Assembly (NCBI RefSeq): GCF_018278905.1 | Contig: NZ_CP046600.1 | Span: forward strand, 3,472,001-3,536,000 | DNA: 64,000 bases | Direction of reading: 5' to 3' | DNA from: Mycobacterium spongiae | GTDB taxonomy: Bacteria; Actinomycetota; Actinomycetes; Mycobacteriales; Mycobacteriaceae | Shown here: positions 1,600 to 26,330 of the stretch, in pieces | Layout of the letters: the number at the start of each line of letters is the position of its first letter | Position numbering within the stretch: position 1 is the stretch's first letter | Notes under the pieces: generated by a model | Told to the model about the DNA's origin: nothing | Databases searched by the model: none | What the model saw: only the letters and a program-made list of their open reading frames with translations | Position numbers and translations under genes: made by a program

Positions 1600-2313
1600 C
1601 TACTGCCGAAGTCTCTCGGTCAAGGTTCGAACTTCGGTCCGCAGCTCATCGATCTGCGCCGCCGTGGCGGCGCGATTCTCGGAATCGGTCTCGGCGACCC
1701 GTTGCACTATCCACGAAGCCAGTGAGGCGGTGACAACGCCGATGAGACTGATCCCGCCGATCATCAACAACACGGCGATGATCCGGCCGATAACGGTGAC
1801 CGGATACAGGTCTCCGTAACCGACAGTGGTCACCGTGGTGATGGCCCACCATACGGCGTTTCCGAAGGAGGTGATGGTCGCGCCCGGGCGGCCTCGCTCC
1901 TGGTCGAGGATGGCTAGCGACGTGACGTAGATCAGCAGCGAAACACCTGACAGCGTGTACACGAGGATTCGGCCGCGAACGGCGTTGCCGACGGCCTTCT
2001 GTAGCGCCCCGACCAGGACCACCAACCGCAACAGCCGCAGCGGTCTCATCATCGGCAGAGCAACGATGAGCAAGTCCAATAGGTGGCGAAAGAACCATTG
2101 CCGGCGGTCGGATGCCAGTGTCAAGCGCACGATGTAGTCGACACCGAAAAGGCTCCAGGCGATCCAGCTCGCCATCCACAACAGGCGCGCCTGCTCATCG
2201 TTGGGTTGCGAGAGCACCTGTACCGAGTACATCGATAGAAAGAGGATCGCGACCACGGCTAGCGGCCACTCGGTGCGCTGCTCCCAGAGCTCTTCCCAAT
2301 TTTTCTCGCTCAT
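1600..2313 (-). CDS. Voltage-gated-type K+ channel
   Basis: A 237-residue integral membrane protein. Four hydrophobic segments are followed by an arginine-bearing stretch (MMRPLRLLRLVV, an S4-like voltage sensor), a pore helix and the potassium selectivity filter T-T-V-G-Y-G-D-L, then the last helix and a short coiled coil (QIDELRTEVRTLTERLRQ) likely to help tetramerise the channel. The ATG at 2313 has a GGAGGGG ribosome site nine bases upstream, so it is preferred to an ATG nine codons earlier. It probably conducts K+ outward or inward across the plasma membrane. It is convergent with the DUF202 pair. Confidence 0.85.
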   Translation of the reverse strand: MSEKNWEELWEQRTEWPLAVVAILFLSMYSVQVLSQPNDEQARLLWMASWIAWSLFGVDYIVRLTLASDRRQWFFRHLLDLLIVALPMMRPLRLLRLVVLVGALQKAVGNAVRGRILVYTLSGVSLLIYVTSLAILDQERGRPGATITSFGNAVWWAITTVTTVGYGDLYPVTVIGRIIAVLLMIGGISLIGVVTASLASWIVQRVAETDSENRAATAAQIDELRTEVRTLTERLRQ

Positions 2314-2587
2314 GCGACTGGGCCCCTCCGACTCGATCATGGCGCTGTCCGCCCCGCTGTCGTGCTGCCGCTACAGGGTAGCGGGGCCCTGGCACCAGCC
2401 TGCCAGCGCCGCAAGTGTGGCTCAATTGCGTTGCCGTGAAATCGCTTTCGGGCAGTCGGCTACACGGCGGCGCTCGACGGCAGCGGCGACCAGTAGGCCA
2501 GCAGCCGCAGCATTACGCTGCACCACAGGCGATGCGATGCTTCCGCCGATCAACAGCGTCTCTCGACGCCGCTACTAACCTGGGCAA

Positions 2588-3175
2588 ATGGTCCCGAAGA
2601 CCGCGGACAACCGCATAGGCAGACGACGGTGCGCAGCGGTGATTCTCGTCCTCATCCTGGCGGCTAGCATTGCTCCGGCGTCATTGGTGGTGTTGCTGCG
2701 GAGCTTCGGAAGAAACCGTGGCCAGCTGCTCAGGTGTGGCTCGTTCAGGAGCCTGTTGCAGCGCTACAACGGCATCACCCGTGCGATCTCGGGAACCCCT
2801 CGGTCCTCCTTGGGGCTGCTCACCCATGAGGGGCGCCGCAGCGGGCGCACCTACCAGACATCGCTGGGCGCAAGGCCCTTCGGCGACGGTTTCCTGTTGC
2901 CATTGACGTATGGCCAGCGCACGGACTGGTACCGGAATCTGCTGGCCAGCGGTGCGGGCACGCTGGCCTGGAAAGGAAGCACCTACCACCTGGAACGTCC
3001 CAAGGTCATTTCCGGAGCCGAGCCGATGCAAGCGTGGCCGATCGCAGCCCGACTCCTGCTCCACTTAGCTGGCGTTCACGATTTCGTGCAGCTGCACGAA
3101 GTTCGGTCATCTCCGGCGGATCCATTGAGCTCCAGCTGTGCTGATCCGCGAGCGAGCTTCCGCCCGAGGGGATGA
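2588..3175 (+). CDS. Deazaflavin (F420)-dependent nitroreductase/quinone reductase family protein
   Basis: A 195-residue protein. Residues 14-37 form one hydrophobic anchor. The rest resembles the DDN family: L-L-T-H-E-G-R-R-S-G-R-T-Y-Q-T matches the conserved G-R-x-S-G-x-x-R/Y F420-binding segment, followed by a G-D-G-F-L-L-P-L-T-Y strand and D-W-Y-R-N-L. Family members use reduced F420 to reduce quinones or nitro compounds. The final 35 residues (after LHEV) are unlike the family and may be a changed C-terminus. A second, smaller member lies at 23756. Confidence 0.7.
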   Translation: MVPKTADNRIGRRRCAAVILVLILAASIAPASLVVLLRSFGRNRGQLLRCGSFRSLLQRYNGITRAISGTPRSSLGLLTHEGRRSGRTYQTSLGARPFGDGFLLPLTYGQRTDWYRNLLASGAGTLAWKGSTYHLERPKVISGAEPMQAWPIAARLLLHLAGVHDFVQLHEVRSSPADPLSSSCADPRASFRPRG

Positions 3176-3498
3176 GATCGGCAGCGTTAGATGACATTCA
3201 CACTCACAATTCTTATCGCGTCTTATTGCGTTCTCGTACGGAATTCGGCTATCGCATTGGCTTCGAGAGCAAAACTAAAGAACAAGAGCGGCGCTCTTGG
3301 GTTCGGGTGTTGCTCCACACCTGGCCTCAAGTCTGAAGCCGGCGATCGGGCCGTCACGGCATTCGCCCAGCCTATGGCAGCGCCGGCAGGCATATGCGGG
3401 GATTGGGATCGGGTCACCGCGCTTCGGTGTTTCTCCCTCGATGCATATCCTTGCTCGTTTCTCGACAACACCGGATAGACCTTCGGTATGCTCAGCGT
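3176..3498 (+). other. Low-GC intergenic stretch with a possible leaderless promoter
   Basis: No convincing gene is seen. Base composition drops here (runs such as tcacaattcttatcgcg and actaaagaacaagagcgg), unlike the preceding 3 kb. A TATGCT hexamer at 3487-3492 lies six bases before a GTG at 3499. That is the spacing expected of a -10 element driving a leaderless mRNA for the propeller gene. Confidence 0.4.
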
Positions 3499-5103
3499 GT
3501 GGCCGCGGGACACGCGAAAGACGACGAAGAGAGGCCGGCTGCGGGCGAAGAGCAAAGTGGTCGGTCATCGGTCTTGACGCAGTTCCTCCGAGAGCATGGC
3601 GGAGTTGCGCCACTGGTCGGCCTTGTGGGAATTACGACGATCATCGTCGGACTGACAACCGCATTTGGCGCGATTCGCAGCGATCACAGTTTCTGGATCG
3701 TGGTCTTCGGGGGATTATCGATTCTTTTTCTTTGGGCATCTTGGCCATTGAGCTACCTCAAGATCGCACCGAAACTGATGTCGATAAGTTCCCTCGGAGT
3801 CGCCGTTATTTCTATTGTCGCCTTACTCACGGTGATCGCAATCGCCGCGCGCCACGGGTCAGATGACACGCCCGTAGAGACTAGTGAAGAGAACGGCGTT
3901 CTAGAATCTCCCATAGAGGGCTGGGCACAGTGGAACACGCTACGGAATCGCGGGCCATCGTTCGGAACCCGCCTGCTCACAGCTGTGGCACGACCGCAAG
4001 GTGAGATCAACGTATTCGTGGTCGGCGACGATGGCCAGGTATGGAACCCTTGGACAGACAATTTGGACGACAATCGATTTTGGCATGAGGATACACTTCC
4101 TGAGAATGACTTTCTTAGGGGAACTCGTCAAGTAACGGCCGTGACAGTAAATAAGCGTGGGCACTCCACACAGGACGTGCTATTTGTTTTCGCTATCGGC
4201 AATGATGGGCAGATTTGGTGGACCGAGCTCGAGGGCCGCGACTGGAAAAACTGGGAAGCACTTCCTGCCGAGGTGAAGTTTTCCCACGCAACGCAGGCCG
4301 TGGCCGCAGTGTCGCGGATCGACGGCGTAATCGACCTGTTTGCGATGGGTATCGACGGCCAGGTCTGGTCCATCGGTTGGGAAGAGCATACAAAATGGAA
4401 GAAGTGGTTTCAGGTCTTTCCATCGAGCACATTCAACGGAAATCAAAGTGTGAGTGTCGCTGCCCGCTCCAAGTACAACGTTGATCTTTTCGTTGTTGGC
4501 CAGAAGACTGTGTGGAGCAATTACTGGTACGAGACCGAAGATGAATGGCATCCTTGGGTGCCGCTAGCGGAGCTCGCAACCAAAGAACGAGGAAAACAAC
4601 ACCCGCTCTTCCCGGACAGTCAAATTATCACCGCGATATCGAAGCCACCAGATCACGACGAACAGAGCGGCGGGGAATACAGCACAAGGGTCCCGGACCA
4701 CACAAGCATTGACCTGTTCGGGGTCGGCGCCGACGGTAGGGTCTGGAGCAACTGGTTTGAGGCGGGCCGCCTAGAGGACGACCCGTGGTATGGGTGGTTC
4801 GAAATCGGGCGAACAAGAGTCGCGAAGAATCAGCAGCTGGCTGCGATCCGTCGAGGCGCTTACAACATCGAGGTCTTCGGCGTTGGCGCCGACGGGAAAT
4901 TGCTGATGACTTTGTGGAAGGACAAGGAGCGCAATCGCCTGGACGGACGCTGGAGCGATTGGGTGCAGCCTGACGGTGTCGGCGACGAGTCGTTTTCTGA
5001 GGTTGCCGTGGTATCCACCTCCCCAGACACCCTCAACTTGTTCGCAATCGGGCACGACGGCTACCTGCGAGAAACGTCCTGGCGGGCCAGCGACTCTGGG
5101 TGA
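3499..5103 (+). CDS. Membrane-anchored seven-repeat beta-propeller protein, PLL-lectin-like
   Basis: 534 residues from the GTG at 3499; an in-frame ATG at 3394 would add 35 residues of unconserved sequence. After a short charged N-terminus come three hydrophobic segments (roughly 35-55, 61-80 and 90-110), then an extracytoplasmic domain of about 400 residues built from seven copies of a D/N-x-F-x-x-G-x-D-G-x-V-W unit: NVFVVGDDGQVW, FVFAIGNDGQIW, DLFAMGIDGQVW, DLFVVGQKTVW, DLFGVGADGRVW, EVFGVGADGKLL and NLFAIGHDGYL. Each unit is followed by W-x-x-W-type strands. The pattern matches the seven-bladed PLL/PHL fucose-binding lectins of Photorhabdus and related proteins. GC content is clearly lower than in neighbouring genes, suggesting acquisition. 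Sugar binding and the extracytoplasmic location are inferred. Confidence 0.72.
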   Translation: MAAGHAKDDEERPAAGEEQSGRSSVLTQFLREHGGVAPLVGLVGITTIIVGLTTAFGAIRSDHSFWIVVFGGLSILFLWASWPLSYLKIAPKLMSISSLGVAVISIVALLTVIAIAARHGSDDTPVETSEENGVLESPIEGWAQWNTLRNRGPSFGTRLLTAVARPQGEINVFVVGDDGQVWNPWTDNLDDNRFWHEDTLPENDFLRGTRQVTAVTVNKRGHSTQDVLFVFAIGNDGQIWWTELEGRDWKNWEALPAEVKFSHATQAVAAVSRIDGVIDLFAMGIDGQVWSIGWEEHTKWKKWFQVFPSSTFNGNQSVSVAARSKYNVDLFVVGQKTVWSNYWYETEDEWHPWVPLAELATKERGKQHPLFPDSQIITAISKPPDHDEQSGGEYSTRVPDHTSIDLFGVGADGRVWSNWFEAGRLEDDPWYGWFEIGRTRVAKNQQLAAIRRGAYNIEVFGVGADGKLLMTLWKDKERNRLDGRWSDWVQPDGVGDESFSEVAVVSTSPDTLNLFAIGHDGYLRETSWRASDSG

Positions 5104-5571
5104 GCCGTGCCGACGAGTGCGGAGTCCTCCCGCGCACCAAGCACCCGACCATTGCCACACCCGAACGGCAGCGGTACCCGGGCTGTGTGGCCACCGCGCT
5201 CACGTCGGTCTAGTTGGCCGGCGGTCTCTGGCTTATCGCTCACGACCGCCTGAGGCGCCACGTCGTCAACGGGCCTAGCGAACTCAGCAGGGGTTGGATT
5301 TGCGCGGTGCCGCGAACACGACGGCGGCCAATGTCGCCGCCGCGCCAAATACCTCCACCACGTGATCCATGGCACTGGTACTACTGCGGTGAAATCACCA
5401 TTGGCGGCCAGTATCGCTGCGGCGCCACCCGGCGCGACAATGAACGCAACGGGCAGCTTCGGGATTTCCTCAATACGGAATAGGATCCGATATTTGCTTT
5501 CGCGGTACCGCCATAGCAATAATTTCGCACCTTTCCGAGGCAGAATTAAATAGCGTCGCGTTCAGGGCAAC
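5104..5571. other. Intergenic region without a supported gene
   Basis: 468 bases between the propeller gene and lysB (convergent ends). No ORF with good codon use was found on either strand. A short minus-strand frame near 5290-5375 reads like a membrane helix (MDHVVEVFGAAATLAAVVF) but stops after 28 codons. It may be a fragment of a lost gene or chance. Confidence 0.3.
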
Positions 5572-6651
5572 TTAAGTATTGACCAGCCGCTCGCGCATCC
5601 ACGCGATTCCGCCCTCGATCTCAAACGGTGCGTAATGGGGGTCTCTATCGGCCAAGAACGTTATGCCGCTGATGATGGCCTGAACAATGCCGACGACCTG
5701 GGAGGCTGGGGTTTCGAACAGGTCGCCGACTTGCGCCGCCAGAGCGTGCGGGTGCGAGAAGAAGTCGCGGCGTGCTACCGCCTGATACACCGAGGCTTTG
5801 ATCTGGCTGGACCTGTCATCTTTGCTTTCGGCGAAGATGTCACCGGTGCGCCACACGTCGACCCAGTTGGGGGGCGTGGCGGGGAATCCGGGCAGGCCGA
5901 ACCGCCGCGCTGGGTCGAGGCCGTGGGTATCTTCGGCGCCTATCACCCATGGCCGCGCCCAGTCCGCGACACTGCCCGTTTCGCGGCACGGAAGTGCGTA
6001 TGTGAGGACACCGACGAGATCGGCTAGGCGCCAGTGCAGCGGTTTGCCGGGGAGCAAGTAGTCGACGTAGAAGTCGAAACCGACGATGGCGCCCTGCGAA
6101 TAGAATCCCAGCGCCCAGGGTGTACCAGCTGGGAACGGCACGCCGTTGTCCATGGCGTAGGACCCGACGAGGCGGGCCAGCTCGCGCACCCCGTCGTCGT
6201 TGTCGAAGGGCAGAGCTCCGTTGTTGTAGCCGATGGGTTGATGGCGGCACAGGCCGTCGGCCTCCAGCCGCGTGGCAGTGTCGGCGACCGGCCCCCGAAA
6301 CATGTCCGACAAGTGGCCTTCGACGGTGAACATGATCGGGAGGTTTGGCGCCGGCGGTGGGTAGCTGCCCAGCCGTGAGCGAACCTTGAGGTAGGTGACA
6401 GCGAAGCCCTGCGCGTCGCGGATCACCGGAAGACTTACGCGGTAGCAGAACTCTTCGACAATTGTCGCCGTGGCCTCGGTGTAGGCCGGCCCGGCGATGA
6501 AGCCCGTGTCGCGCACCCATTGGAACTTGTCGTGAAGCTTCTGGCTCAGCAGCTCGATCGCGCGCCAATTGGGCGCGTTGCGAGGCGTGTCTGGGTTGTC
6601 GACGTCGCCGACACCGAGACCGATCCAATTCCCGGCCGCGTCCCTAGCCAC
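5572..6651 (-). CDS. lysB: LysB-type mycolylarabinogalactan esterase
   Basis: 359 residues from a GTG at 6651 whose bases overlap the lysA stop (GTGGCTAG), a classic coupled phage arrangement. A longer frame to 6876 would read the lysA repeat tail out of frame and is rejected. Residues 1-80 look like a short peptidoglycan-binding-type segment ([10 protein letters not shown]). The rest is an alpha/beta hydrolase of the cutinase/LysB type with the nucleophile elbow G-F-Y-S-Q-G (Ser about 185), and a [12 protein letters not shown] region near residues 102-113. In mycobacteriophages LysB cleaves the ester linking mycolic acids to arabinogalactan and completes lysis. No holin or other phage gene is adjacent. 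Confidence 0.85.
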
Positions 6652-8098
6652 GGGCCGCGGCTTTCTCGGCCGAGGCTTTCTTGGCTCGGACTTTCCTAGC
6701 TCGTGCCTTCTTGGCTGGGGCTTTCTCAGCTGGGGCTTTCCTAGCTGAGGCTTTCGTAGCTGAGGCATTAGTGCCCGGAGTCTTCCTGGCTGCGAGTACC
6801 GCCGCGGGCGTTTGCGGCCTACCGCCAAGGGTGAACCCTGGCTTGCCCGCATCGCTGCTGCCGATCGTCGCGTCACGGATCTCTGCTAGTGACTCGACGA
6901 TTGTTTGCCAGCCCAGCATTTCCCAGCGGCCAGACATCTGCAGGAACATCTGTTGGGTGAAATCGGGAGGGATGCCGGTAGGGCTCGGCTCGGGCACCTC
7001 GACGCGCGGCTGATCGGCGGGCTTCGGGTCGAATTCGCCGCGCAGATCCTTGGCGACCTGAAGACGGAACCAGTCCATACTCAGGTTGCCGGGATCCCAT
7101 TTCACGTTGGGAGCCCGGGTCGCGTATTCCTTGTGGCCGATGACGCGGTCGGATCCATAGCCAAGCCTTCTGACCACCGCGGTGGCGGCGTCGCGCATGG
7201 TGTGGATTTGGGCGTCAGGCCAGGGTTGGCCGCGGTTGTAACTGCCGTCCGGGTTCACCGTCGGCCAGGCGCATTCGAAGCCGATCAGGCGAATGTTGCC
7301 GGTGTTGGTGCCCACGCCCGGGTAATAGCCTTGACCGGCGTGGTTGCATGGACCAACCGCGACTAGATGGCACCTGCCGTCGGGTTTGATGAGGCATTGC
7401 GCCAGGGGCCCGGCCAGGAAGCCGCCTGGCTGCTCGACACCGTCACGGATCGCCGCGACCGTCTCTCGGTCGTTGCCGGTGTGGTGGATCATCACGCCCC
7501 AAATGTCGTCCATCTGGCGATTCGGGCCGGCGCCGTTGCCGCGTCCTTGCCATCCGGCTTCGACGACCAGCCGGTCGCCGAGCGCTTCGCGCAAGACGTC
7601 TGCCAGCCACACGGGGTCGCCTTGCCAACCCGCGAGAGGCTCCGGACTCTCATCCGGCCGAGCGCTCGTTGTGCCCAGGATGCGGTTGTAGAGCGCTTGC
7701 GCCGCGCTCATGCGGGGGTCATAGCGGTCGGGGAAGGCCGACCGTTGAACCTGCTGTGCATACCAGCCCGGCGAGTTGGCATCGCTGTTGTAGTCCAGTC
7801 GCGCGAGGCGTTGGAAGAACAACCGCGCGGATTTGTGGGGATCCATACAGGTGGCGGCGTCGCCCCACCACCACGCGCCGTTGCCCCACACCACCTGTTG
7901 CTGGAATAGACCCACCGAGCGGCCGTCCGAGCCGACACGTTCGTGCGGAAGATTCAGCGACTCGGGCACTTTGTGGTTCGCGTACATGATCCAGTCGGAC
8001 TCGACGTAGACCGTGGCGAATGCGATCACGATCCCGCGGGGTGTGATGCCGAGCTCGCGGCCCGCGTGCAGGATGGCGCGGGCATAGTCGTCTTTCAT
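6644..8098 (-). CDS. lysA: LysA-type endolysin: transglycosylase-like domain plus amidase_2
   Basis: 484 residues, preceded by GAAAGGG and an ATG at 8098. Residues 1-145 resemble the lysozyme/transglycosylase-like module of mycobacteriophage lysins and tape-measure proteins (V-E-S-D-W with Glu33 as likely catalyst; [13 protein letters not shown]). Residues about 185-335 are an N-acetylmuramoyl-L-alanine amidase (amidase_2) with M-I-H-H-T-G and G-H-K-E-Y...K-W-D-P-G zinc and catalytic motifs. The C-terminus is a Lys/Ala repeat tail (K-A-x-A-K units) resembling a nucleic-acid or wall-binding tail. The protein should cleave peptidoglycan. It lacks a signal peptide, so release would need a holin or lysis. 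It forms a two-gene unit with lysB. Confidence 0.87.
6657..6761 (-). repeat. Seven imperfect 15-bp tandem repeats in the lysA 3' end
   Basis: On the plus strand the units read like gaggctttcttggct and ggggctttcctagct, seven in a row from 6657. Each codes for a five-residue Lys/Ala/Arg unit of the lysA tail. Such repeats can expand or contract by slippage, so tail length may vary between strains. Confidence 0.75.
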
Positions 8099-8133
8099 CG
8101 GTGCCCTTTCTCGTAGTAGCGATGTCGCATATC

Positions 8134-8221
8134 AACATTTTCGAGAACGTTAATAATGGTGGCTGTGGCGAGCGTGCACCAGCATTTCCGGGAACGTCAA
8201 TAACGGCGGCTGTGCCGAGCG
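8134..8221. repeat. Two imperfect 41-bp direct repeats upstream of lysA
   Basis: Copies at 8134-8174 and 8181-8221 (47-bp period) share most bases: aacattttcgagaacgttaa against agcatttccgggaacgtcaa, then taatggtggctgtggcgagcg against taacggcggctgtgccgagcg. They sit 36 bases upstream of the lysA ATG on the minus strand, so they lie in its promoter region and could be operator copies. Each contains a cgagaacg/cgggaacg core. Confidence 0.55.
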
Positions 8222-8511
8222 CGAAGCTCCGGTAGAAAAATCGCATCGCGGGCCAATGCTCATCGCCGCGCAATCATACAAATTCGGCGCACCCAGTCGC
8301 GCAACGCCGAAAACAGGATTAGCATATGGTAGCTGCCGAGTCAGCGGCACCATATTATGAATTTTACGGCCAGTAGAGGTCGATTTGAAGTGCCAAATGA
8401 AGAATTATTACTGGCATTTCCGTACCGTGCTAAAAGCCGGCCGCGCTGGCAAACGGGTGCACCCGGGCACGACCAGCCGTTGCGCTCTGTCAACAGTGAA
8501 CCCGCCGCTCC
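8222..8511. other. Intergenic stretch between lysA promoter repeats and PPE fragment
   Basis: 290 bases, AT-richer than the rest of the genome (e.g. catattatgaattttacgg near 8350). No supported gene, and nothing recognised. Confidence 0.3.
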
Positions 8512-8676
8512 CGGGTCGGGCACAGACATGACGGCCCCGGTGTGGATGGCGTCGCCGCCCGAGGTGCACTCGGCGATGCTGAGCAGCGGCCCCGGCCCGG
8601 CCCGTTGCTGGCTGCCGCGGCCGCGTGGTCGTCGCCGAGCGTCGAATACACCGACGTGGCCGACGAACTGACCGCG
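8512..8676 (+). pseudogene. Duplicated, frameshifted 5' fragment of a PPE gene
   Basis: About 165 bases nearly identical to 12920-13085, the start of the intact PPE gene. The ATG at 8528 begins the same [16 protein letters not shown] sequence. One base is lost in the run ccccggcccggcccg (ccccggtcccggcccg in the intact gene), so the frame shifts after about 25 codons, and homology stops near 8676 at codon 50. The Zur-like box of the intact gene is not present upstream here. It lies tail-to-tail with the PE_PGRS gene. The high identity implies a recent duplication or recombination event. Confidence 0.85.
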
Positions 8677-8740
8677 CTCCCGAGCAGTCTAGCGACCCGG
8701 CCCCGCCGGTCGCGCGGACTCTCCGGGAGTTCGCGGCGGG

Positions 8741-11257
8741 CTATGCCAATCCGTTGAGCCCGTTCTCGCCGACCAGGATTCCGCCGGTGCCGCCTGCGCC
8801 GGGCGTGCCCCCGGGCGTGCCGCCGTTACCGCCGTTGCCGCCGTTCCCGATGAGCACGCCGTTGCCGCCGGCGCCACCGTCCCCGGCGACACCGGCGTTG
8901 CGGTCCCCGCCGGCGCCGCCGTTGCCGCCGCTGCCGATCACCCCAGCCGCGCCGCCATCGCCGCCGGTCCCGCCGGTGCCCGTCCCGAATTCGGCCCCGC
9001 CGGCCCCGCCGGCCCCGCCGGAGCCGAAGAGGAATCCTGAGGCACCGCCGTCACCGCCGTCCCCACCGGTTGCGCCCCCTATTCCGATCCCGCCGGCGCC
9101 GCCCTGACCCCCATCTCCGAACAGCAGGCCCCCGCTCCCGCCGTTGCCGCCGGCACCGGCGGGATTACCCAGGGCGCCGCTTTGGCCGCCGCTGCCGCCA
9201 GCGCCGCCGGAGGCGCCGGCGGCCAGCAAGCCTGCAGCACCGCCGGCCCCGCCGTTGCCACCGGCATCACCGGCCCCGCCGGCTCCACCCGTGCCGCCGG
9301 CGCCGAACAACCCGCCACTGCCGCCGGACCCGCCGTTCCCGCCGTCGCTGCCGAAGGCCCCGCCGCGCCCGCCGCTGCCGCCATCGCCGAACAGCGCGCC
9401 GCTGCCGCCGGCTCCGCCAGCCCCGCCATCCGAGCCGGCCCCGCCGGTCCCCGCGGCGCCGACGAAGAAACCAGCATTGCCGCCCACGCCGCCGTTGCCG
9501 CCGCTACCACCGGATCCCCCGGTACCGCCGCTGCCGAACAGGAGCCCGCCGGCCCCGCCGCTGCCACCTGCGCCCCCGCCAGCGCCACCGGCGCCGCCGT
9601 TACCGAAGAGGACCCCGCCGGCACCGCCGGCCCCACCGGTGGTGGCACCACTCGCGCCGTTTCCGCCGTTGCCAAAGAACCATCCACCGGCCCCGCCGTC
9701 GACCCCGGACCCCGGAGTTCCGTTGGCGCCATTGCCGATCAACGGGCGCCCGGTCAGTGCCTCGGTGGGTCCGTTGATCGCGGCTAGCGCCTGCTGCTGC
9801 AGGGCGTGAATTGGGTTGGTGCTGGCCGGTGCGTTGGAACCGTCTGCGCCCAACAAGAGCCCCCCGACGCCGCCGGTCCCGGTCGCTCCCAACGTCGCGC
9901 CAGTCCCGCCGCTACCGCCGTTGCCGCCGTTACCGGTCAGCACGCCGTTGCCGCCGGGCCCGCCGTTACCGCCGGCCGCTACGCCGCTGCCGCCGCTGCC
10001 CCCGTTACCGCCGTTGCCGATCAATCCGGGTGCGCCGCCGGCCCCGCCAGCCCCGCCAGTGCTCCCACCGTTGATGCTGCCGCCGCCGGCACCGCCGGAG
10101 CCGCCGGAACCGAATAGCTGGCCGGCGTTACCGCCGGCTCCCCCTTGGCCGCCGCCCGCGGCACCGCTGCCGCCGACGCCGCCGGACCCGCCATCGCCGA
10201 AGAGTAAGCCCCCACTGCCACCGGACCCGCCGTTCGCGCCATCAGCGCTCGCGGCGCCTTCCCCGCCGGCACCGCCGGCGCCACCGGGGGCGCCGAGGCT
10301 GAGCGTGCCCGCGTCGCCGCCGGCTCCGCCTACCCCTCCTACGTTGCCACCACCTGTGCCCGAACCGCCGGCCCCGCCGGTGCCGCCCGCGCCGAACAAT
10401 CCGCCGGACCCGCCGGCCCCACCAGCCCCGCCGTCGGTGTTGAGAATGCCGGCGCCGCCGGCGCCGCCGGACCCGCCGCTGGTGAACAGCCCGCCGGCCC
10501 CGCCGGCCCCACCCGCGCCGCCTGCAATGGCGTTGACACTGGCGGCCCCGCCGGCCCCACCCACGCCAGCCGCACCGAACAGCAAGCCGGCGTTCCCCCC
10601 GGCCCCGCCGGTCCCCCCGGTCGCGCCTGGCGCGACGCCGGTCCCGCCGGCTCCGCCGGCCCCGCCCGCGCCGAACAGCAACGCCGATCCGCCGGCCCCG
10701 CCGACCCCGCCGGTGAAGCCGTTCGCGCCGGCCCCGCCAGCACCGCCGGCTCCACCGCTGCCGATCAAACCAGCGGCTCCGCCGTTACCGCCGGCGCCGC
10801 CATCAGCACCAACTCCGAGGGCCCCGGATCCGCCGCTACCGCCGTTGCCGATCAACCAACCGCCGGCCCCGCCGGGAGCGCCGGTGCCTGGGGCGCCGTT
10901 GGCGCCGTTGCCGATCAGCGGGCGCCCGGTAAGCGCTAGGACTTGCGCGTTGATGGGATCCAGCAGCGGCGACACCGCCGCGGCATCGGCGGCCGCATAG
11001 GCGCTGCCGCCGGCGGACAAGGCTTGGACGAATTGGGTGTGAAAGGCGGCGGCCTGCGCACTCAGGGTCTGATAGGCCTGCCCGTGTGCACCGAACAGCG
11101 CCGCGATGGCCGCCGACACCTCATCGGCGCCGGCGGCCAGCACACCGGTAGTCTCTGCCGCCGCAGCCGCGTTGGCCGCGTTGAGCGTCAAACTGAGACT
11201 GGTCAAATCCGTTGCCGCCGAGGCGATAAGCTCTGGCGCCGCGATCACAAACGACAT
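8741..11257 (-). CDS. PE_PGRS family protein with two PGRS modules
   Basis: 838 residues. Residues 1-95 are a typical PE domain ([20 protein letters not shown] start; [12 protein letters not shown] near the end), which directs export through type VII secretion (ESX-5 in studied species). After the linker, [11 protein letters not shown] opens a Gly/Ala-rich PGRS region of G-G-A/N-G-G repeats. Around residues 490-515 the linker-like sequence [11 protein letters not shown] and a second [12 protein letters not shown] recur, so the protein looks like two fused PGRS blocks with one PE domain. The long opposite-strand frames here are shadows of the GC repeats. The role is likely cell surface or host interaction. 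Confidence 0.92.
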
Positions 11258-14525: not shown

Positions 14526-14593
14526 CTGCCCGCAGGTGCCCTATCGCCCGTACCGAAGCAGAGACATGTAGCCAGTGTCGGTTCGACGACGTC

Positions 14594-15391
14594 TCAGCGG
14601 AGAGCCGCGTTGCCGCGCACCCGGGACAACACCGCGAGCGCGGCGATCGTGACCGCGAGCAGAACGAGTGTGCAGGCGGCCGCCAACAGCGTGTCACCGT
14701 GCTCGGCTAACCCGTAGATCGTTGCCGGCAGCGTCCGCCATGTCGGCGGATACACCATGGCTGTGGCTCCGAGCTCACCCATCGACAGCGACAACGACAA
14801 CCCCGCGGCACCGCCGATCGCGGGAACGAGGAGCGGGAGTGTGACCCTGAAAAAGATCCTCAGCGGCGATGCACCAAGAGATTCGGCAGCGCGGTACAGC
14901 CCCGGATCGATGTGCTGCAATGCGGCGTCGACGGAACCGTAGGCGAACGCAAGCACCAACACTGTATGGGCGGCTACCACGATGCCAGCACGACCGCCCA
15001 GGATGAGTGGCGGTTCGTTGAAGGCGATCAGGATGCCGAGGCCGATCGCCACCGACGGCACCGCCACCGGGATATGAAAGACACCGGCGGTGAGCGTCGC
15101 AAGCCATGTCGGCGCACTGCGGGACAGGATCGCCGCCGTCACTCCCAGCGCCACCGAGATCACGCTGGCAATGATGGCGGTCTGGATGCTCACCGACAGG
15201 CTGGCGAGGTTCTCGCCGGACAGGGCCTCCCGCACGTGGTCTGCCGTCCACCCGGAGGGCACCAGCTCGGTCCAACTGGTGGCGAACGCCGCAACGGCGA
15301 TAGCGAGCACCGGCAGGGCGAAGACCATGATGCCAATGACAATGAACAAGGCCCGGGCGATTCCGCGGGAGGTCGGGCTCCACCACAACAT
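14594..15391 (-). CDS. phnV: 2-aminoethylphosphonate ABC transporter permease (PhnV-like)
   Basis: 265 residues with six membrane segments and the binding-protein-dependent permease EAA loop (Y-R-A-A-E-S-L-G-A-S-P-L-R-I-F-F). The ATG at 15391 overlaps the stop of the upstream permease by one base (TGATG). It is the last gene of the four-gene minus-strand operon phnS-phnT-phnU-phnV. With the companion permease it forms the channel for phosphonate import. Assignment to the aminoethylphosphonate type rests on the neighbouring degradation genes. Confidence 0.8.
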   Translation of the reverse strand: MLWWSPTSRGIARALFIVIGIMVFALPVLAIAVAAFATSWTELVPSGWTADHVREALSGENLASLSVSIQTAIIASVISVALGVTAAILSRSAPTWLATLTAGVFHIPVAVPSVAIGLGILIAFNEPPLILGGRAGIVVAAHTVLVLAFAYGSVDAALQHIDPGLYRAAESLGASPLRIFFRVTLPLLVPAIGGAAGLSLSLSMGELGATAMVYPPTWRTLPATIYGLAEHGDTLLAAACTLVLLAVTIAALAVLSRVRGNAALR

Positions 15392-16275
15392 CAGACCCGC
15401 CCCCCGCGCCGACCAGCCAGCCGCCGGGCAAGCAATCGTAAACCCCCGAACAGTACGAGTGACAAGATGATCTGCACACACGCGTAGACGGCCGCGGCCG
15501 GAACGTCCGCCGTGACAATGCCAGTGGTATAGATCTGCGTCGGGATCGTCCGGACACCCTTGGCACCGGTGAACGCGACGATGCCAAATTCGTTGAGCGT
15601 CAACAGCACTGTCAATCCGCCGCTAGCGGCCAACGCCGGCACGATCTCAGGGAAAAGCACGATCGCGAACACCCGCAACGGCGAAGCACCAAGACTTGCG
15701 GCGACATTCAGCTGCGCCGGTGGAAGCTGGCTATAGGCGGCGAGCAGCGGCCGGATGACAAACGGAGTGAAAAAGGTGACCTCGGCCGCCACGACGCCGA
15801 CGGGCGAGGAAAGAAAGGTTGAAAAGTCCACCGAGTCACCGAGGATCGCGTGTGCCGCTCCCGATCTGCCGTAGAGAAAGACGAACGCGAGGACGACGAG
15901 GAACGACGGCATCGCAACGATGACGTCGATGAGCTTGGACGCCAGTCCCGAGCCGCGGAAAGGGGCGAAGGCGATCAACGTCGCGACGAGTGTTCCGAGC
16001 AGCAGGCATCCGACGGTGGCCGCCACGGTGATCGTCACCGTGTTGCGCAAGGCTTCACGGAACGAACTCGAGACGAGGGTCGTCGTGATCGTCTCGGTTC
16101 CCCAGCTTCCGGTAGAAGTTCGCGTTGCCTGAGCGAGGACCCGCACCAGCGGATAGCCCGCGAAGAACACGACAATCGCCAGCGGGATCGTGACCAGGTA
16201 CCGCGATATGTCGAAACGGGTTTGCGGCGCCACTGGCGCGGCCGGCGCTTCCCCGCGTTCGAGAGTGGCCGTCAT
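15391..16275 (-). CDS. phnU: 2-aminoethylphosphonate ABC transporter permease (PhnU-like)
   Basis: 294 residues, about six membrane helices and an EAA-type loop (N-V-A-A-S-L-G-A-S-P-L-R-V-F). The ATG overlaps the ATPase gene stop (ATGA), so translation is coupled. It is homologous to PhnU/Fe3+-type permeases. It pairs with the downstream PhnV-like permease. Confidence 0.8.
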   Translation of the reverse strand: MTATLERGEAPAAPVAPQTRFDISRYLVTIPLAIVVFFAGYPLVRVLAQATRTSTGSWGTETITTTLVSSSFREALRNTVTITVAATVGCLLLGTLVATLIAFAPFRGSGLASKLIDVIVAMPSFLVVLAFVFLYGRSGAAHAILGDSVDFSTFLSSPVGVVAAEVTFFTPFVIRPLLAAYSQLPPAQLNVAASLGASPLRVFAIVLFPEIVPALAASGGLTVLLTLNEFGIVAFTGAKGVRTIPTQIYTTGIVTADVPAAAVYACVQIILSLVLFGGLRLLARRLAGRRGGRV

Positions 16276-17435
16276 GGTGCGCCGTCGACCGCGATAGCGA
16301 CCCCGGAAGGCGTCTGGAAGCGAATACCCACGGCATGGTCGGCCGCCCATTCGCAGCGCCCGAGAATGTCGACATCGAGCAAGGAGTCGGGAACGTCGCT
16401 CAGTGCCACGGTTACCCGCGTCGATGTCCCCCGCCACATCGCGGTGGTGACCCGTGCGGCGTGTGTGTCGGTGTCGCCCAGATCGTGGATCGTGGCCGCG
16501 TGCGGCCTTACGGCGAGGTCGACGATCGAACCGACCCCGACCGCTGGGGTCGCGACCGCCTGTAGGGTCACCGACGGGGCGACTTCCACCTCTGCGACAT
16601 CCGATTCGAGGTGTTTAACGATGCCGCGCAACAAGTTCGCACCGCCGAGGAACTGGGCGGTGAACTGTGTTTCCGGCGTGGCCCACAGTTCCTCCGGGGT
16701 ACCCAGGGCATGCAATTGGGCGTCGCGGAGCAACACGATCCGATCGGCGAGCGCGAGCGCCTCGGTTTGATCATGGGTGACGTAGACCATGGTGGTGTCG
16801 GGTAGGCGGTGCTTGAGTGCGGCGAGTTCGACGAGCATCGCGGCGCGAAGTTGCGCGTCGAGCGCGGACAGCGGCTCGTCGAGCAAGAGGACCTTCGGGG
16901 CGATGGCGAGGGCGCGGGCGATCGCGGCACGTTGTTGCTGGCCGCCGGATAGTTCCCGTGGCAGGCGTTTCGCGTATGCGCTCATCCCCACCAGCTCAAG
17001 GCACTCCGCGACTCGTTCGGCGGTCTCGGTCCGCGGTGTGCGCCGGGCGCGCAGCCCGAAGGCAACGTTGTCCTCGATCTTCATGTGCGGAAACAGCGCA
17101 TACGCCTGTGGGACGACGCCGATCCCACGACGAGCCGGCGGCAGGTTGGTGATATCTCGTTCGAAAAGTTGAATCCTGCCCGAGGAAGGCCGGACGAACC
17201 CCGCGAGTGCAGACAGCGCGGTCGACTTTCCCGAGCCGGACGGGCCGAGCATCGCGATTGTCTCGCCCGGCTGCACCCGGAGGCTGAAATCCCGCAATGC
17301 GGTTGTCTTGCCGTAGGTTACCGAGACGCGGGAAAAGGAGATCGCCGGTTCGGTCGTTGCCAACGACACCGATCCGGTCGGCGCCTTGATTTGCGGCGCC
17401 GCCGTGTTCTGTTGTGCCTTAATGGGATTGGTCAC
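16272..17435 (-). CDS. phnT: ABC transporter ATPase (PhnT-like)
   Basis: 387 residues. Walker A G-P-S-G-S-G-K-S-T (about residues 66-74), Q-loop, signature L-S-G-G-Q-Q-Q-R, Walker B L-L-L-D-E-P and the switch His in V-T-H-D are all intact. A C-terminal TOBE-like domain of about 130 residues follows, as in spermidine/iron/phosphonate importers. The start is GTG, overlapping the binding-protein gene stop by four bases (GTGA). It powers import through the two permeases. Confidence 0.87.
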   Translation of the reverse strand: MTNPIKAQQNTAAPQIKAPTGSVSLATTEPAISFSRVSVTYGKTTALRDFSLRVQPGETIAMLGPSGSGKSTALSALAGFVRPSSGRIQLFERDITNLPPARRGIGVVPQAYALFPHMKIEDNVAFGLRARRTPRTETAERVAECLELVGMSAYAKRLPRELSGGQQQRAAIARALAIAPKVLLLDEPLSALDAQLRAAMLVELAALKHRLPDTTMVYVTHDQTEALALADRIVLLRDAQLHALGTPEELWATPETQFTAQFLGGANLLRGIVKHLESDVAEVEVAPSVTLQAVATPAVGVGSIVDLAVRPHAATIHDLGDTDTHAARVTTAMWRGTSTRVTVALSDVPDSLLDVDILGRCEWAADHAVGIRFQTPSGVAIAVDGAP

Positions 17436-18487
17436 CGGTGCACCGCCTGATCGTAGGCTGCCATATCTGCCCGAAATGTCTGCGCGACGGAGGTCCAGTC
17501 GACCGATACGACGTCGATGCCCGCCATGACTCGACGCTGCTCGTCGTCAACGGAGTCCTGGGCGGCCGGCAGCGTCGGGAATCCAACCGCGACCGGTCCG
17601 ATGGTGCGCTGCGACTCGGGCGACAGCAGGAAGCTCAGCAGCCGGCGCGCTCGGTCCGGATGCGGGGCTCCCTTGACCATTCCAGCCGCGTACGGGACGG
17701 CCACCGTCCGCCGTTGACCGTCGTCATCGGCCGGCATGAACAGCGTGAAGTTTCCTTGGCCACTACGCAGGGTGCGAAGATTCATCTGAACATCGCCGTT
17801 GGCCACGAGGATGTCTCCCCGCGACGTCTTCTCCTGAAGTGAGCCAGTCGACTTGCTCGGCCCGACGTTGTTGGCCTGCAACTGCCGCAGATAATCCAGC
17901 GCGCGATCTTTGCCCCACATCGTGGTGAGCAGAACCAGAACCGCGGTGCCGTCACCAGCTTGGCCCGGTGTGGAGTATTGCAGCTTTCCTTTGAACCGCG
18001 GCGCGAGCAGATCGGACCAGGTGCGCGGCTTGACGGCGACCTCGTTGTTGACGATGAAGGTCAGGTAGTTGTTCACGATGTTGACATAGCGTCCCTGTGC
18101 ATCACGGGCACTGTCGGGAATGTCGGCGACGTCGGCACCGTGGCTCACGAGCAGGCCGCGCATCGCAATGTCCTGGATGAACGGAGGCAGGGTGATGACG
18201 ACATCGGCTTGAGTGTTGTGCCGCTCGTTGGTAATCCGCGCCACGGCCTCCGAGGATCCGGTTTCGACGAGGTTTACCGGGATGCCGGTTTGACGAGTGA
18301 AAGCGACGAACCGGTCTTTGTACCAGGCAGCCAAGCCGTCAGCGGAATAGACGGTGATGGTTCCGGCCCCGGTGTGACCTGTCCCGCCGCACGCGGTGAG
18401 GAGAAGAACGGCCGCGACAATCGTCGACGCGATGGCCCTAGCTGCCCTGAACGGCAATTCGCGGCGCCTCCCTTCACGGTCCGTCAC
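17432..18487 (-). CDS. phnS: Phosphonate-binding lipoprotein (PhnS-like)
   Basis: 351 residues. A basic N-terminus, hydrophobic segment and lipobox L-L-T-A-C (Cys33) mark a membrane-anchored lipoprotein. The mature part is a class II/III periplasmic binding protein of the iron/aminoethylphosphonate type (T-I-T-V-Y-S-A-D-G-L near its start; P-S-K-S-T-G-S in the middle). It is first in the operon and would capture 2-aminoethylphosphonate outside the membrane. Confidence 0.8.
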   Translation of the reverse strand: MTDREGRRRELPFRAARAIASTIVAAVLLLTACGGTGHTGAGTITVYSADGLAAWYKDRFVAFTRQTGIPVNLVETGSSEAVARITNERHNTQADVVITLPPFIQDIAMRGLLVSHGADVADIPDSARDAQGRYVNIVNNYLTFIVNNEVAVKPRTWSDLLAPRFKGKLQYSTPGQAGDGTAVLVLLTTMWGKDRALDYLRQLQANNVGPSKSTGSLQEKTSRGDILVANGDVQMNLRTLRSGQGNFTLFMPADDDGQRRTVAVPYAAGMVKGAPHPDRARRLLSFLLSPESQRTIGPVAVGFPTLPAAQDSVDDEQRRVMAGIDVVSVDWTSVAQTFRADMAAYDQAVHR

Positions 18488-18571
18488 GCGTCCCTGACAT
18501 GAGAGTCCACGTGATTACCGCGAGAATGGCGACAGTCAATGCCGTCTGTTCACACAGAGTAACGACGATGT

Positions 18572-19711
18572 TCACGCACCGGCGCCGGGGAAATGCCGCT
18601 GAGCCAAACCGAAGGCGATGGTCATACCCACCCCCGCGGTGACCACCCGTACCGACACGCGATCGCCGAGCTCGGCGACAAGGTAGTCGCCACGTGGGCT
18701 GGACGCGTACACGCCTTGCCAGCGTTCGTGAACGTTCAATTGATCGACACCGAGGACCTCGCAGATCGCACGATGCAGTGTGTCGCTGGTGTGCTCACTC
18801 AAGAAGACGTCCGTGGTCGGTTCGGTGTGGTGCGAGTCGCCAATGATCAGCGTGCCATCGGGGCGCTGGGTCAACATCACGTTGGCCTCGATATCGAGCA
18901 GATCGGGACGCGCAGCGGCCACCCGAGCGCGCAGCGCTTGTGCGGCGTCGGTCCCGGCAAACGCGGAATAGCGCAGCAGCGACGTGGCGGTCAATACGGC
19001 CGGGTCGATGACGACGCCGCCGGGAGCCTGCACCCGGGCCATCTGCAATGCGCAGCGCGCAACATCGTGTGTCTCAGCCAGTTCGGGGTACAGGTAGTCC
19101 AGATCGTGACCAACACAGACGATCACTCGTTGGCAGCGTGCGCCGCCACGTGACGTGTGCACGGTGTCGCCATCGAATCCCAGGTAGTTGGTGCGGAAAA
19201 GGACGTCAACCCCGGGCTGGTCGGCCAGCCAGGCGGCCAGCCGGTGCGCGGCAACGCGGGGGTCCACGCGCAGGTCACAGCCCAGTTCGGCGCCGCCGAC
19301 GATGTCGTCGGCCCCGCATCCGCCCAGTCTCTGGCGGACCTGGGCCGCAGTGAGCAGGCCCAGCCCTTCGTGGCCGCGCCCGGACAGCTCTTCGAGTACG
19401 GCCAATTCGTCGGAGCCGCGGGCAACCACCACACCACCGGTTTCTCGGACGGCAAGGCCGGCACGGCGCCCGAGGTCAAGCCATCGCTGGCGAGCAATCG
19501 TGGCAAGTTCGCGTAACTCGCCGGCCTGGCCGGTGACACAGACGTGACCGAAGTTTCGCACCGAGGCCCCGACCGCACGTTGGTCGCGTTCGAGGAGTAG
19601 CACCCGCAAGCCAGCATCCAAGGCCCACGCGGCGTGGGCGAGCCCAACTATCCCAGCGCCGACGACCGCGACATCGTAGGACTCAGTGGACGGAATTCGG
19701 ATCCAAGTCAC
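18572..19711 (-). CDS. FAD-dependent oxidoreductase of phosphonate catabolism
   Basis: 379 residues from a GTG at 19711, nine residues before Y-D-V-A-V-V-G-A-G-I-V-G-L; an upstream extension would cross the divergent promoter. It belongs to the DAO/glycine-oxidase fold, with the dinucleotide motif G-A-G-I-V-G, an E-R-D-Q ribose site and a late G-V-G-M-T-I FAD loop. The family found next to phosphonatase genes oxidises aminoethylphosphonate or its N-methyl form to phosphonoacetaldehyde. No PhnW transaminase is present, so this enzyme probably takes its place. It lies 84 bases downstream of no gene on its own strand and is divergent from the hydrolase. Confidence 0.75.
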   Translation of the reverse strand: MTWIRIPSTESYDVAVVGAGIVGLAHAAWALDAGLRVLLLERDQRAVGASVRNFGHVCVTGQAGELRELATIARQRWLDLGRRAGLAVRETGGVVVARGSDELAVLEELSGRGHEGLGLLTAAQVRQRLGGCGADDIVGGAELGCDLRVDPRVAAHRLAAWLADQPGVDVLFRTNYLGFDGDTVHTSRGGARCQRVIVCVGHDLDYLYPELAETHDVARCALQMARVQAPGGVVIDPAVLTATSLLRYSAFAGTDAAQALRARVAAARPDLLDIEANVMLTQRPDGTLIIGDSHHTEPTTDVFLSEHTSDTLHRAICEVLGVDQLNVHERWQGVYASSPRGDYLVAELGDRVSVRVVTAGVGMTIAFGLAQRHFPGAGA

Positions 19712-19772
19712 GCACCAAGATTGAGCGGTATCCCGATCGAGTTCAAGTGCAGCACGCGGTAGCCTGCACCCC

Positions 19773-20456
19773 ATGATCGCTCTCGTTGCCCTCGACATGG
19801 CCGGCACCACCATCGACGATGGTGGTGCCGTCTACCGCGCCCTGCAACACAGCGTGGAAGAGGCAGGGGCTACCGTTGCCGCCGACGACCTGCAGAGATG
19901 GATGGGTACCGACAAGGTTGAGGCGATCACCAACCTGCTGCGGCTGGGTGGGGTGGATCCAGCCGGCGATCTGGTCGCGAGCACCTTCGACGCGTTCCGC
20001 GCCCACTTGCGCCAGGCATACCATGACGAGCCACCGGTGGCCCTGCCCGGCGTGGCGGACGCAATCGCCGATCTGCGCGCCCGCGGCATCAAAGTGGCTC
20101 TGACGACGGGGTTTTCCGACGACGTTGCCGAACCGCTGCTCGATTCGCTGGGCTGGACCGCCGGTGACGGGCCCGATCACACGGTCGATGCCGTCATCAC
20201 CACGTCCGACGTCCCCGCCGGACGCCCGGCGCCCTACATGATTTTCCGGGCAATGGAGGCCTGCGGCGCGCACGACGTCCGTTCGGTACTCGTGGCCGGC
20301 GATACCGTGGTCGATGTTCAGTCGGGTCGCAACGCCGGCGCTGTCGCAGTCGGCGTGCTCACCGGCAAGGTCGACCGCGCCACGCTGGCGGCCGAGGATC
20401 ACGACTACATCCTCGATAGCGTCGCCGACATCCCCACCGTGCTCACACAACGCTGA
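19773..20456 (+). CDS. Phosphonatase-like HAD hydrolase (PhnX-like)
   Basis: 227 residues. The HAD nucleophile motif D-M-A-G-T-T (Asp8) is followed by M-G-T-D-K, where Lys48 lines up with the Schiff-base lysine of PhnX phosphonoacetaldehyde hydrolase (M-G-x-x-K). T-T-G-F-S (motif II), G-R-P-A-P-Y (motif III Arg) and G-D-T-V-V-D (motif IV) complete the active site. It should cleave the C-P bond of phosphonoacetaldehyde, giving acetaldehyde and phosphate. It is divergent from the FAD oxidoreductase with 61 bases between, so the two probably share a regulatory region. Confidence 0.82.
   Translation: MIALVALDMAGTTIDDGGAVYRALQHSVEEAGATVAADDLQRWMGTDKVEAITNLLRLGGVDPAGDLVASTFDAFRAHLRQAYHDEPPVALPGVADAIADLRARGIKVALTTGFSDDVAEPLLDSLGWTAGDGPDHTVDAVITTSDVPAGRPAPYMIFRAMEACGAHDVRSVLVAGDTVVDVQSGRNAGAVAVGVLTGKVDRATLAAEDHDYILDSVADIPTVLTQR
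19803..19829 (+). repeat. Perfect 13-bp inverted repeat inside the phnX-like 5' coding region
   Basis: GGCACCACCATCG, one A, then CGATGGTGGTGCC. It lies 31-57 bases after the ATG and codes for G-T-T-I-D-D-G-G-A. The mRNA could form a very stable hairpin close to the ribosome site, or the site may bind a regulator. It could also be a by-product of codon choice. Confidence 0.5.
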
Positions 20457-20581
20457 GTTTCTGCGGCTAATCGCGGTGTCTGCGACCGGCTGCAGCGCCG
20501 TGGGAACGGTTTCATAGACTCTGAAATCCCTTGGTGTGCTAGCGATCCAGTGACGACTGCACAAAGTCTCTGCAAGAGCCA

Positions 20582-24950: not shown

Positions 24951-26330
24951 ATGAGCGACATGACAGCAGTGTTTTCAGACATCGTCGGGGACAACAACCT
25001 GCTGTCCGGCGACGCGATCCCCGAAGACTATGCCCACGATGAGGAGCTAACCGCGCCGCCGCAGAAGCCCGCCTACCTCGCCAAGCCAGCGCGCGCCGAA
25101 GAAGTCGCGCAGCTGCTGGTGGCCGCGTCCGACCACGGAGTGCCAGTGACAGCGCGCGGATCCGGGTGCGGGTTGTCGGGCGCGGCGCGGCCACAGCCGA
25201 ACGGACTGCTGGTCTCGTTCGATCGGATGAACGCCGTCCTGGAGGTCGACACAGCCAACCAAGTCGCCGTCGTTCAGCCTGGCGTGACGCTGACCGAGCT
25301 GGACGCCGCGACAGTTGATTACGGGTTGGGCTACATGGTTCACCCCGGTGAGGCGTCCTCCAGCGTCGGGGGGAACGTCGGAACCAACGCCGGCGGAATG
25401 CGCGCGGTCAAGTACGGAATAGCCCGCCACAATGTCCTCGGGTTGCAGGCCGTGCTGCCCACCGGCGAGATCATCCGAACTGGGGGCAAGATCGCGAAGG
25501 TGTCTACTGGCTACGACCTGACCCAGCTGATCGTCGGCTCGGAAGGCACATTGGCTTTGGCCACCGAGGTCGTCGTCAAATTGCATCCGCGACTCGAGCA
25601 CAACGCCAGCGTGCTGGCCCCGTTCGTCGACTTCGACCAAGTCATGGCGGCGGTGCCCAAGATCCTCGCCAGCGGGCTTACGCCATACATCTTGGAGTAC
25701 ATCGACAACATGACGATGGCCGCGCTCATCTCCACGCAGGACCTGGAGCTGGGTATTCCGGACAAAATCCGCGACAGCTGTGCGGCGTATCTCCTCGTGG
25801 CGCTGGAGAGCCGAACTACAGACCGATTGTTCGAAGACGTCGAGACTGCCGGCGAGATGCTCTCCGAATTGGGCGCGGTCGACGCCTACGTGCTCGAAGG
25901 AAGCGCGGCACGCAAGCTGATCGAGGGGCGCGAAAGGGCCTTCTGGGCGGCGAAGGCACTCGGTGCCGACGACATCATCGACACCGTCGTCCCGCGCGCA
26001 TCAATGCCGAAATTCCTGTCCACCGCGCGTGGCCTGGCAGCGGCCGCAGGCGGTGGCGCGGTCGGCTGCGGGCACGCCGGTGACGGCAACGTGCACATGG
26101 CCATCGTGTGCAAGGACCCGGACAAGAAGAAGCAGCTTATGTCCGACATCTTCGCTCTTGCAATGGAATTAGGGGGAGCGATCTCCGGTGAGCACGGTGT
26201 TGGCCGCGCCAAGACCCCATACTTCCTCGAGCTGGAAGATCCCGCCAAGATCGCCCTCATGCGCCGGATCAAGCAGAGCTTCGACCCGGCGAACATCCTC
26301 AACCCTGGCGTCGTCTTCGGCGACGCGTGA
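24951..26330 (+). CDS. FAD-linked oxidase, D-lactate/glycolate dehydrogenase type
   Basis: 459 residues from ATG 24951, the same length as M. tuberculosis Rv2280 (recalled). An FAD_binding_4 (VAO-type) domain spans about 35-215 with V-T-A-R-G-S-G-C-G-L-S-G and S-S-V-G-G-N-V-G-T-N-A-G-G. The C-terminal FAD-oxidase domain holds G-C-G-H-A-G-D-G-N-V-H and S-G-E-H-G-V-G. It oxidises a 2-hydroxy acid, likely D-lactate or glycolate, and passes electrons to the respiratory chain. It begins the stretch colinear with Rv2280-Rv2299c. Confidence 0.88.
   Translation: MSDMTAVFSDIVGDNNLLSGDAIPEDYAHDEELTAPPQKPAYLAKPARAEEVAQLLVAASDHGVPVTARGSGCGLSGAARPQPNGLLVSFDRMNAVLEVDTANQVAVVQPGVTLTELDAATVDYGLGYMVHPGEASSSVGGNVGTNAGGMRAVKYGIARHNVLGLQAVLPTGEIIRTGGKIAKVSTGYDLTQLIVGSEGTLALATEVVVKLHPRLEHNASVLAPFVDFDQVMAAVPKILASGLTPYILEYIDNMTMAALISTQDLELGIPDKIRDSCAAYLLVALESRTTDRLFEDVETAGEMLSELGAVDAYVLEGSAARKLIEGRERAFWAAKALGADDIIDTVVPRASMPKFLSTARGLAAAAGGGAVGCGHAGDGNVHMAIVCKDPDKKKQLMSDIFALAMELGGAISGEHGVGRAKTPYFLELEDPAKIALMRRIKQSFDPANILNPGVVFGDA

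Follow-up and report, generated by a model that had tools for sequence, protein, structure and literature searches.

Two adjoining genes on the minus strand of the Mycobacterium spongiae chromosome, lying within the 64,000-nucleotide stretch analysed here (in the following termed the window), encode a LysA and a LysB enzyme of the families found in mycobacteriophage lysis modules. Both genes are intact and, as the original prediction had stated, the start of lysB overlaps the stop of lysA, by 8 nt at 6644–6651. The longest mechanical reading frame over lysB spans 5572–6876, with GTG 6651 as the likely start; phage LysB matches, among those listed, begin at residue 81 of that frame. The location of this GTG within the end of lysA suggests that both genes share one message. 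At the DNA level the cassette occurs once in the genome. The features of the locus and its surroundings are:

5572–6651, minus strand: lysB, 359 amino acids from GTG 6651, a LysB-type esterase by sequence (S185, D271, H339)
6644–8098, minus strand: lysA, 484 amino acids, with a muramidase-like N-terminal domain, Amidase_2, a linker and a Lys/Ala-rich tail
6644–6651, minus strand: 8-nt overlap of lysB start and lysA stop (GTGGCTAG)
6647–6794, minus strand: 15-bp repeats that encode the C-terminal, Lys/Ala-rich tail of LysA (approximately residues 436–484)
8131–8227: 47-bp imperfect tandem duplication, 33–129 nt upstream of lysA, a possible regulatory region
5104–5571: gap 3' of lysB without a recognised gene; the same position is taken by the holin in a prophage relative
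3394–5103, plus strand: convergent lectin-like gene, 569 amino acids, low GC3, a neighbour outside the module
8741–11257, minus strand: PE_PGRS gene, neighbouring lysA on its upstream side
2314–24950: variable stretch with the cassette, 22,637 bp here versus 4,987 bp between homologous genes in relative G023

LysA matches the endolysin family phrog_700 in PHROGs (3.4e-85). Its residues 197–337 constitute an Amidase_2 domain (8.6e-14; PDB match 9hna, 1.1e-61), while residues 3–134 match PDB entries 8b2h ('SH3b domain-containing protein', 1.9e-19) and 8b2e ('muramidase', 2.8e-9). The Pfam and PDB matches agree with the earlier proposal of two catalytic domains and place LysA among the modular peptidoglycan hydrolases of phage endolysin families. 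Enzymes of the LysA family cut peptidoglycan, and those of the LysB family free mycolates from the wall. The window LysB, by family a putative mycolate esterase, matches phrog_102 (1.3e-50) and LysB of phage D29 (3hc7, 1.7e-9) and has the LysB-type SQG motif, the pentapeptide opening with F instead of G. Its catalytic serine, aspartate and histidine, located with the triad positions as given in PMC7022511, are invariant in all 106 aligned LysBs. By simple hydropathy, neither enzyme shows a hydrophobic signal at its N-terminus.

The two copies of the duplication just 5' of lysA are identical at 39 of 50 positions, their cores are the sole matches in the genome when up to three mismatches are allowed, and none of 1000 mononucleotide shuffles attained 29 of 40. 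The element may serve as a control site.

Chromosomal surroundings and search for phage genes

The cassette shares its variable stretch with the lectin-like gene, the PE_PGRS gene, an SDR gene, a PPE gene and an ABC-transporter set. In G023 the corresponding 4,987 bp extend from an ion channel gene to the homologue of 24951–26330. The genes upstream, as far as the ion channel (1600–2313), have co-located homologues in G010 (from about −10 kb), G023 and G007 (−8 kb). Within the stretch, DNA from 14590–20460 is matched at E 1e-100 or better in just one other of 396 genomes (own included), where the match covers one gene near 20 kb. An orthologue of the cassette at the same place was not found in the sampled genomes of the genus (248 for LysA, 396 for LysB), so that the check for conservation at this position, which the original prediction had called for, turned out negative; other lineages do keep a fixed position across species, as group C does in four genomes (see below).

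The neighbour at 3394–5103, described earlier as lectin-like, does adjoin the cassette; the label is tentative, and neither Pfam nor PDB gave the gene a sequence match. The 569-residue product shows hydrophobic N-terminal stretches, repeated VG.DG-like motifs and 28 % self-alignment, and the GC content of 4177–5103 is 57 %. A link to the cassette found no support and the gene was rejected as a module partner: it is convergent, and matches are missing from 27 other lysin loci and from 11 further ones (L181–L186, L199–L203).

Phage genes were sought by tblastn of 649 viral-contig proteins, a limited reference set, against 104 kb comprising 40 kb upstream and the window. Apart from lysA and lysB, this search returned a single, weak match of 61 aa at 52.7 kb (E 2.7e-4). 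Comparison of 39 regional proteins (between roughly −20 and +28 kb, with some PE/PPE-type genes omitted) with PHROGs gave 19 families, chiefly metabolic or without a named function, and a lone match to 'minor tail protein with lysin activity' (3.7e-11) that was not assigned to its gene of origin. These two stray matches stand against a clean absence of phage genes. In the genome as a whole, a single contig of 5.58 Mb, the capsid and portal families PF05065 and PF04860 of Pfam, the two families searched, yielded zero matches, and the nearest integrase-family matches lie at least 0.89 Mb from the cassette. The 64-kb window is devoid of tRNA genes, so that a tRNA attachment site was rejected, and no clear flanking direct repeat is present across 2300–9000.

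Similarity to viral or prophage proteins did not reveal a holin-like gene beside lysA and lysB. Prophage prophiGD43A-5 has the order lysA-lysB-holin. A holin remnant in the gap 3' of lysB was rejected, as the best alignments beyond the lectin-like gene were to host proteins (none better than E 3e-4, with the search space cut to 531 bases). Plasmid origin was likewise discarded (a single 2 % match, to a PE gene). In sum, these searches showed no clear integrase, structural gene or att-type repeat of a prophage remnant beside the cassette, and no adjoining holin as in a complete phage lysis cassette. The earlier statement that integrase, holin, structural gene and attachment site are missing nearby is confirmed, and the wider searches described here did not detect a prophage near the cassette.

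Relatives of the two lysins

Among the matches listed, the named phages closest in LysA are Moonbeam, XFactor and Pacc40 (64 % over residues 2–407). Within the genus, 148 of 248 genomes gave a LysA match, a figure not counted as conservation because many of these rows cover one amidase domain or the Lys/Ala tail alone. The LysA-like Amidase_2 genes of mycobacterial chromosomes resemble the window gene in placing such a domain in a host genome; they differ in containing one LysA domain alone (match to about residues 150–370), and an adjoining LysB was seen in G067, G207 and G111.

Identity of LysB to phage LysBs does not exceed 38 % in the best 40 of 1249 phage records, yet it reaches 52–70 % with proteins on five IMG/VR contigs. 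LysB has matches at 1e-6 or better in 55 of 396 sampled genomes, its own included. The best of these in another genome, with 68 % identity, belongs to M. xenopi and resides in a prophage (21 of 24 locus genes viral-like). Relatives at 42–43 % in G029, G161 and G099 are located in prophage-like loci, and one at 44 % lies on a 7.7-kb contig of G119 (L199), on which viral-set matches are confined to the lysins, homologues of a prophage holin region are kept and a PE-like gene adjoins. The few source names available for chromosomal LysBs are mostly 'hypothetical protein' or 'peptidoglycan-binding', with one 'Lysin B'. In the LysB tree, whose bootstrap values had not stabilised, the window sequence groups with three database sequences (100/98), and prophage and phage-free loci are intermingled in the surrounding part of the tree.

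For pairs of window and phage genes dS is near 1 (Nei-Gojobori), a value that is silent on domestication. Codon use was discarded as evidence for adaptation: lysA and lysB are host-like, yet the same two genes on an F1-type phage contig are equally so. Because codon use is uninformative and viral contigs reach 70 % identity, retention of the pair by the host was rated lower, and its being phage debris higher.

Lysin loci across the genus

The surroundings of LysB genes were surveyed in 31 of the 55 genomes with 7–20 kb of context and in seven with about 3.8 kb (G133, G148, G200, G222, G295, G350, G404; outside the phage-free count given below, inside the dN/dS sets); five extra genomes were contributed by other searches (G053, G029, G099, G161, G182), and 17 lie outside the context survey (G069, G086, G091, G147, G149, G178, G196, G226, G230, G242, G286, G322, G331, G379, G397, G401, G412). 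A locus was classed as phage-free if at least 12 kb were seen and none or one of the called genes besides lysA and lysB was similar to the viral set. Where there was one, it codes for a lysin in G405 and in G053; in G104 it is an integrase fragment, and in G238, G207, G067, G011 and G293 it is some other gene. Applied to the loci with surroundings examined, which are a selection and do not amount to a census, this rule gives 26 phage-free loci with LysB or LysA-LysB, spread over 24 genomes; in 17 of the 26, genes of both the LysA and the LysB type are present. A further twelve loci are prophage-like (G185, G344, G292, G289, G371, G077, G219, G363, G029, G099, G161, G182), and one (L199) was assigned to neither class.

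A second pair, revealed by the group III query described below, is present in M. spongiae itself, 2.8 Mb from the window cassette and between PE_PGRS and PPE genes (L181:8828-12701). It consists of a 381-aa LysB-like gene (G000:C1:694828-695973) and an 887-aa enzyme with M23, Rv2525c-like, Amidase_2 and LGFP parts (G000:C1:696038-698701); no other viral-like gene is among the ten called in 20 kb.

Several lineages of phage-free loci could be followed across genomes. In group C (G202, G046, G119, G006) LysB is located beside an enzyme of 860–877 aa, which in G006 combines M23, Rv2525c-like, LysA and amidase parts, and the flanking genes are common to the four genomes; the large LysA-like gene of G119 has no single open frame in the draft genome and is represented by its called piece alone. 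Group I, exemplified by G272, combines a LysB carrying a peptidoglycan-binding domain with a 510-aa endolysin-type partner, and its neighbours are constant in seven genomes. In group II, one or more neighbours of LysB are common to five of the six genomes, G347 being the exception. The LysB of group III, found in ten genomes, is more distant; it is 80–93 % identical to the query and has neighbours that vary between subgroups. Mean LysB dN/dS, by Nei-Gojobori counts, is 0.116 in group C (4 genomes), 0.122 in group I (7), 0.185 in group II (6) and 0.114 in group III (8; without G069 and without G104, in which the start is miscalled into a tRNA); for the partner enzymes it is 0.193 in group C and 0.149 in group I. 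Judged by these ratios, the related phage-free lineages are retained under purifying selection and are not decaying. That a LysA-LysB cassette of this kind can decay is illustrated by G053, where both genes are shortened.

Several neighbourhoods deserve mention in their own right. The shortened pair of G053 (L144, 3441-16526) lies between two nSTAND1-WD40 proteins, one of which probably carries an N-terminal TIR domain; the neighbourhood is conflict-system-like. In G104 (L166, 8644-10260) an integrase-like fragment, tRNA-Leu and lysB follow one another in a row, a vestige of phage ancestry in the group III lineage. In G238 the LysA-LysB cassette (L145, 5518-12448) is a few kb from a gene that we take to resemble HBHA, whose tail is likewise Lys/Ala-rich. 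Small homologous genes are found beside lysis cassettes at three kinds of locus (L145:12615-13112, L135:13887-14198, L227:1957-2520, L228:1976-2539); both tested products (L145, L227) are LppP/LprE lipoproteins (PF14041), possibly acting as protector or regulator.

The Lys/Ala-rich tail of LysA

A tail was scored where any segment of 30 aa within the C-terminal 150 residues held at least 25 % K+R and at least 25 % A. By this rule it is present in the window LysA, in the LysA-type genes of G053, G238, G202, G046 and G006, in the different endolysin of G405 and also in prophage-like G292; it is missing in the phage-free G347, G067, G207, G119 and G209 (where a Lys-rich stretch is N-terminal), in the group I partner (G272) and in six prophage genomes. 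None of 27 viral LysAs has the tail, and in a wider, overlapping viral-contig set it occurs in two of 65. These two (L227, L228) stem from IMG/VR contigs with lengths of 6.0 and 9.3 kb, whose gene content besides the lysins comprises a piece of an acyl-CoA dehydrogenase and an LppP/LprE lipoprotein, with no virion gene seen; though listed as viral, they are probably chromosomal cassettes. Among database LysA homologues, counted irrespective of locus context, the tail is found in 14 of 119. The association of the tail with phage-free loci is suggestive and draws on few independent lineages.

Discussion

The interpretation we put forward, with a probability of about 0.47, is that the window cassette, an envelope-lysing pair without a holin, was captured and has been kept by its host, as one case of a recurrent class. 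A two-enzyme mycobacteriophage lysis module would have been captured without the rest of the phage, or would have outlived it, in a variable stretch bearing PE/PPE genes. LysB would cut mycolic acids off arabinogalactan, and the targets of LysA would be the glycan of peptidoglycan and the MurNAc-L-Ala bond. As both proteins are devoid of a hydrophobic N-terminal segment and a holin was not found, they may wait in the cytoplasm, leak or exit slowly, or act when the membrane fails; once released, they could lyse the producing cell or cells nearby. Through its cationic tail LysA might be held on the wall, on acidic wall polymers. We infer activity, expression, release and use of the window pair. 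Of twelve LysAs produced in M. smegmatis without a holin, three led to ATP release and lysis and most were without effect, as reported in PMC3314691.

Retention by the host is favoured by the conserved catalytic residues, by the second phage-free pair in the same genome, by the 26 phage-free loci, by the low dN/dS of related modules, by the distribution of the tail and by the lack of a clear phage gene nearby. It is weakened by the missing orthologue at this place, by the viral nature of the nearest relatives with known context, by the decay seen in G053, by the limited viral reference set, by the lack of effect of most LysAs without a holin and by the exceptions to the tail rule, namely G292 and several phage-free LysAs. 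The term 'domesticated', as used in the original prediction, is accordingly well supported for the related phage-free modules, with their dN/dS of 0.11–0.19, and plausible for the window copy, which has a counterpart pair in the genome but is absent from this place elsewhere and sits in a variable stretch.

The pair could instead be phage debris, in that a prophage entered the variable stretch and recombination left lysA-lysB alone, intact because the event was recent. This explanation, doubtful though a serious candidate, stays alive through the absence of the cassette at this place in the sampled genomes, the variable site and the prophage-like nearest kin, that is the prophage and viral-contig LysBs with 68–70 % identity; the shortened G053 cassette demonstrates decay, and the row in G104 fits the same picture. 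Debris is, on the other hand, not readily reconciled with a two-enzyme unit that is whole and without clear integrase, holin or structural trace, with a second pair in the same genome and with purifying selection on other phage-free lineages.

It is improbable that the enzymes constitute a weapon, leaving lysing cells and attacking related mycobacteria from outside. A precedent is described for prophage lysins of Lactococcus lactis in PMC10377672, the LysA tail is cationic, and the LppP/LprE-type lipoproteins beside three other cassettes could be protectors. Such a lipoprotein is not found at the window cassette, however, a hydrophobic N-terminal signal was not seen in either enzyme, and access from outside is hampered by the mycobacterial outer layer, as stated in PMC3314691. 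Very improbable is a defence device in which stored LysA and LysB hasten or spoil lysis once an infecting phage opens the membrane, leading to a smaller burst: no holin of its own was found and the G053 cassette lies between two genes of the nSTAND1-WD40 type, which occurs in defence sensors, but a holin usually sets lysis timing, and the G053 genes are shortened and differ in orientation from the nSTAND genes.

Returning to a pair kept by the host, three known systems offer themselves for comparison. The LysA-LysB cassettes of mycobacteriophages (F1-type phages; prophiGD43A-5) are alike in enzyme families, gene order and gene overlap, whereas the window pair was found without a holin or other clear phage gene and its LysA has an additional Lys/Ala tail. 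In E. coli K-12 the DLP12 lysis module is described as a phage lysis operon domesticated for cell-wall maintenance and vesicle control (PMC7918800). It differs from the window pair in that it retains holin and spanins within a cryptic prophage, whereas the window cassette consists of two lytic enzymes alone, one of them a mycolate esterase by family, with no prophage found. The bacteriocin-like prophage lysins of Lactococcus lactis LAC460 are phage lysins that serve the bacterium, a role demonstrated by knock-outs according to PMC10377672; there the lysin genes are situated in prophage regions. None of the best-matching titles in the open-access literature (subscription papers aside) dealt with chromosomal stand-alone LysA-LysB pairs in mycobacteria.

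On a broader scale we propose, tentatively, that mycobacteria repeatedly took over holin-less LysA-LysB pairs for host-controlled opening of the envelope in programmed lysis, release or kin killing, and rebuilt them with Lys/Ala tails, M23, LGFP or peptidoglycan-binding modules, two such pairs being present in this genome. Recurrent phage-free pairs, with two in M. spongiae, are a broader, more interesting and testable result than a single copy, and they provide a natural set of chromosomal LysBs. If mycolate-stripping and peptidoglycan-cutting enzymes are indeed owned by the host, their genes, which can be deleted and assayed, would be candidates for self-lysis, DNA release, vesicle formation and contact killing in the genus.
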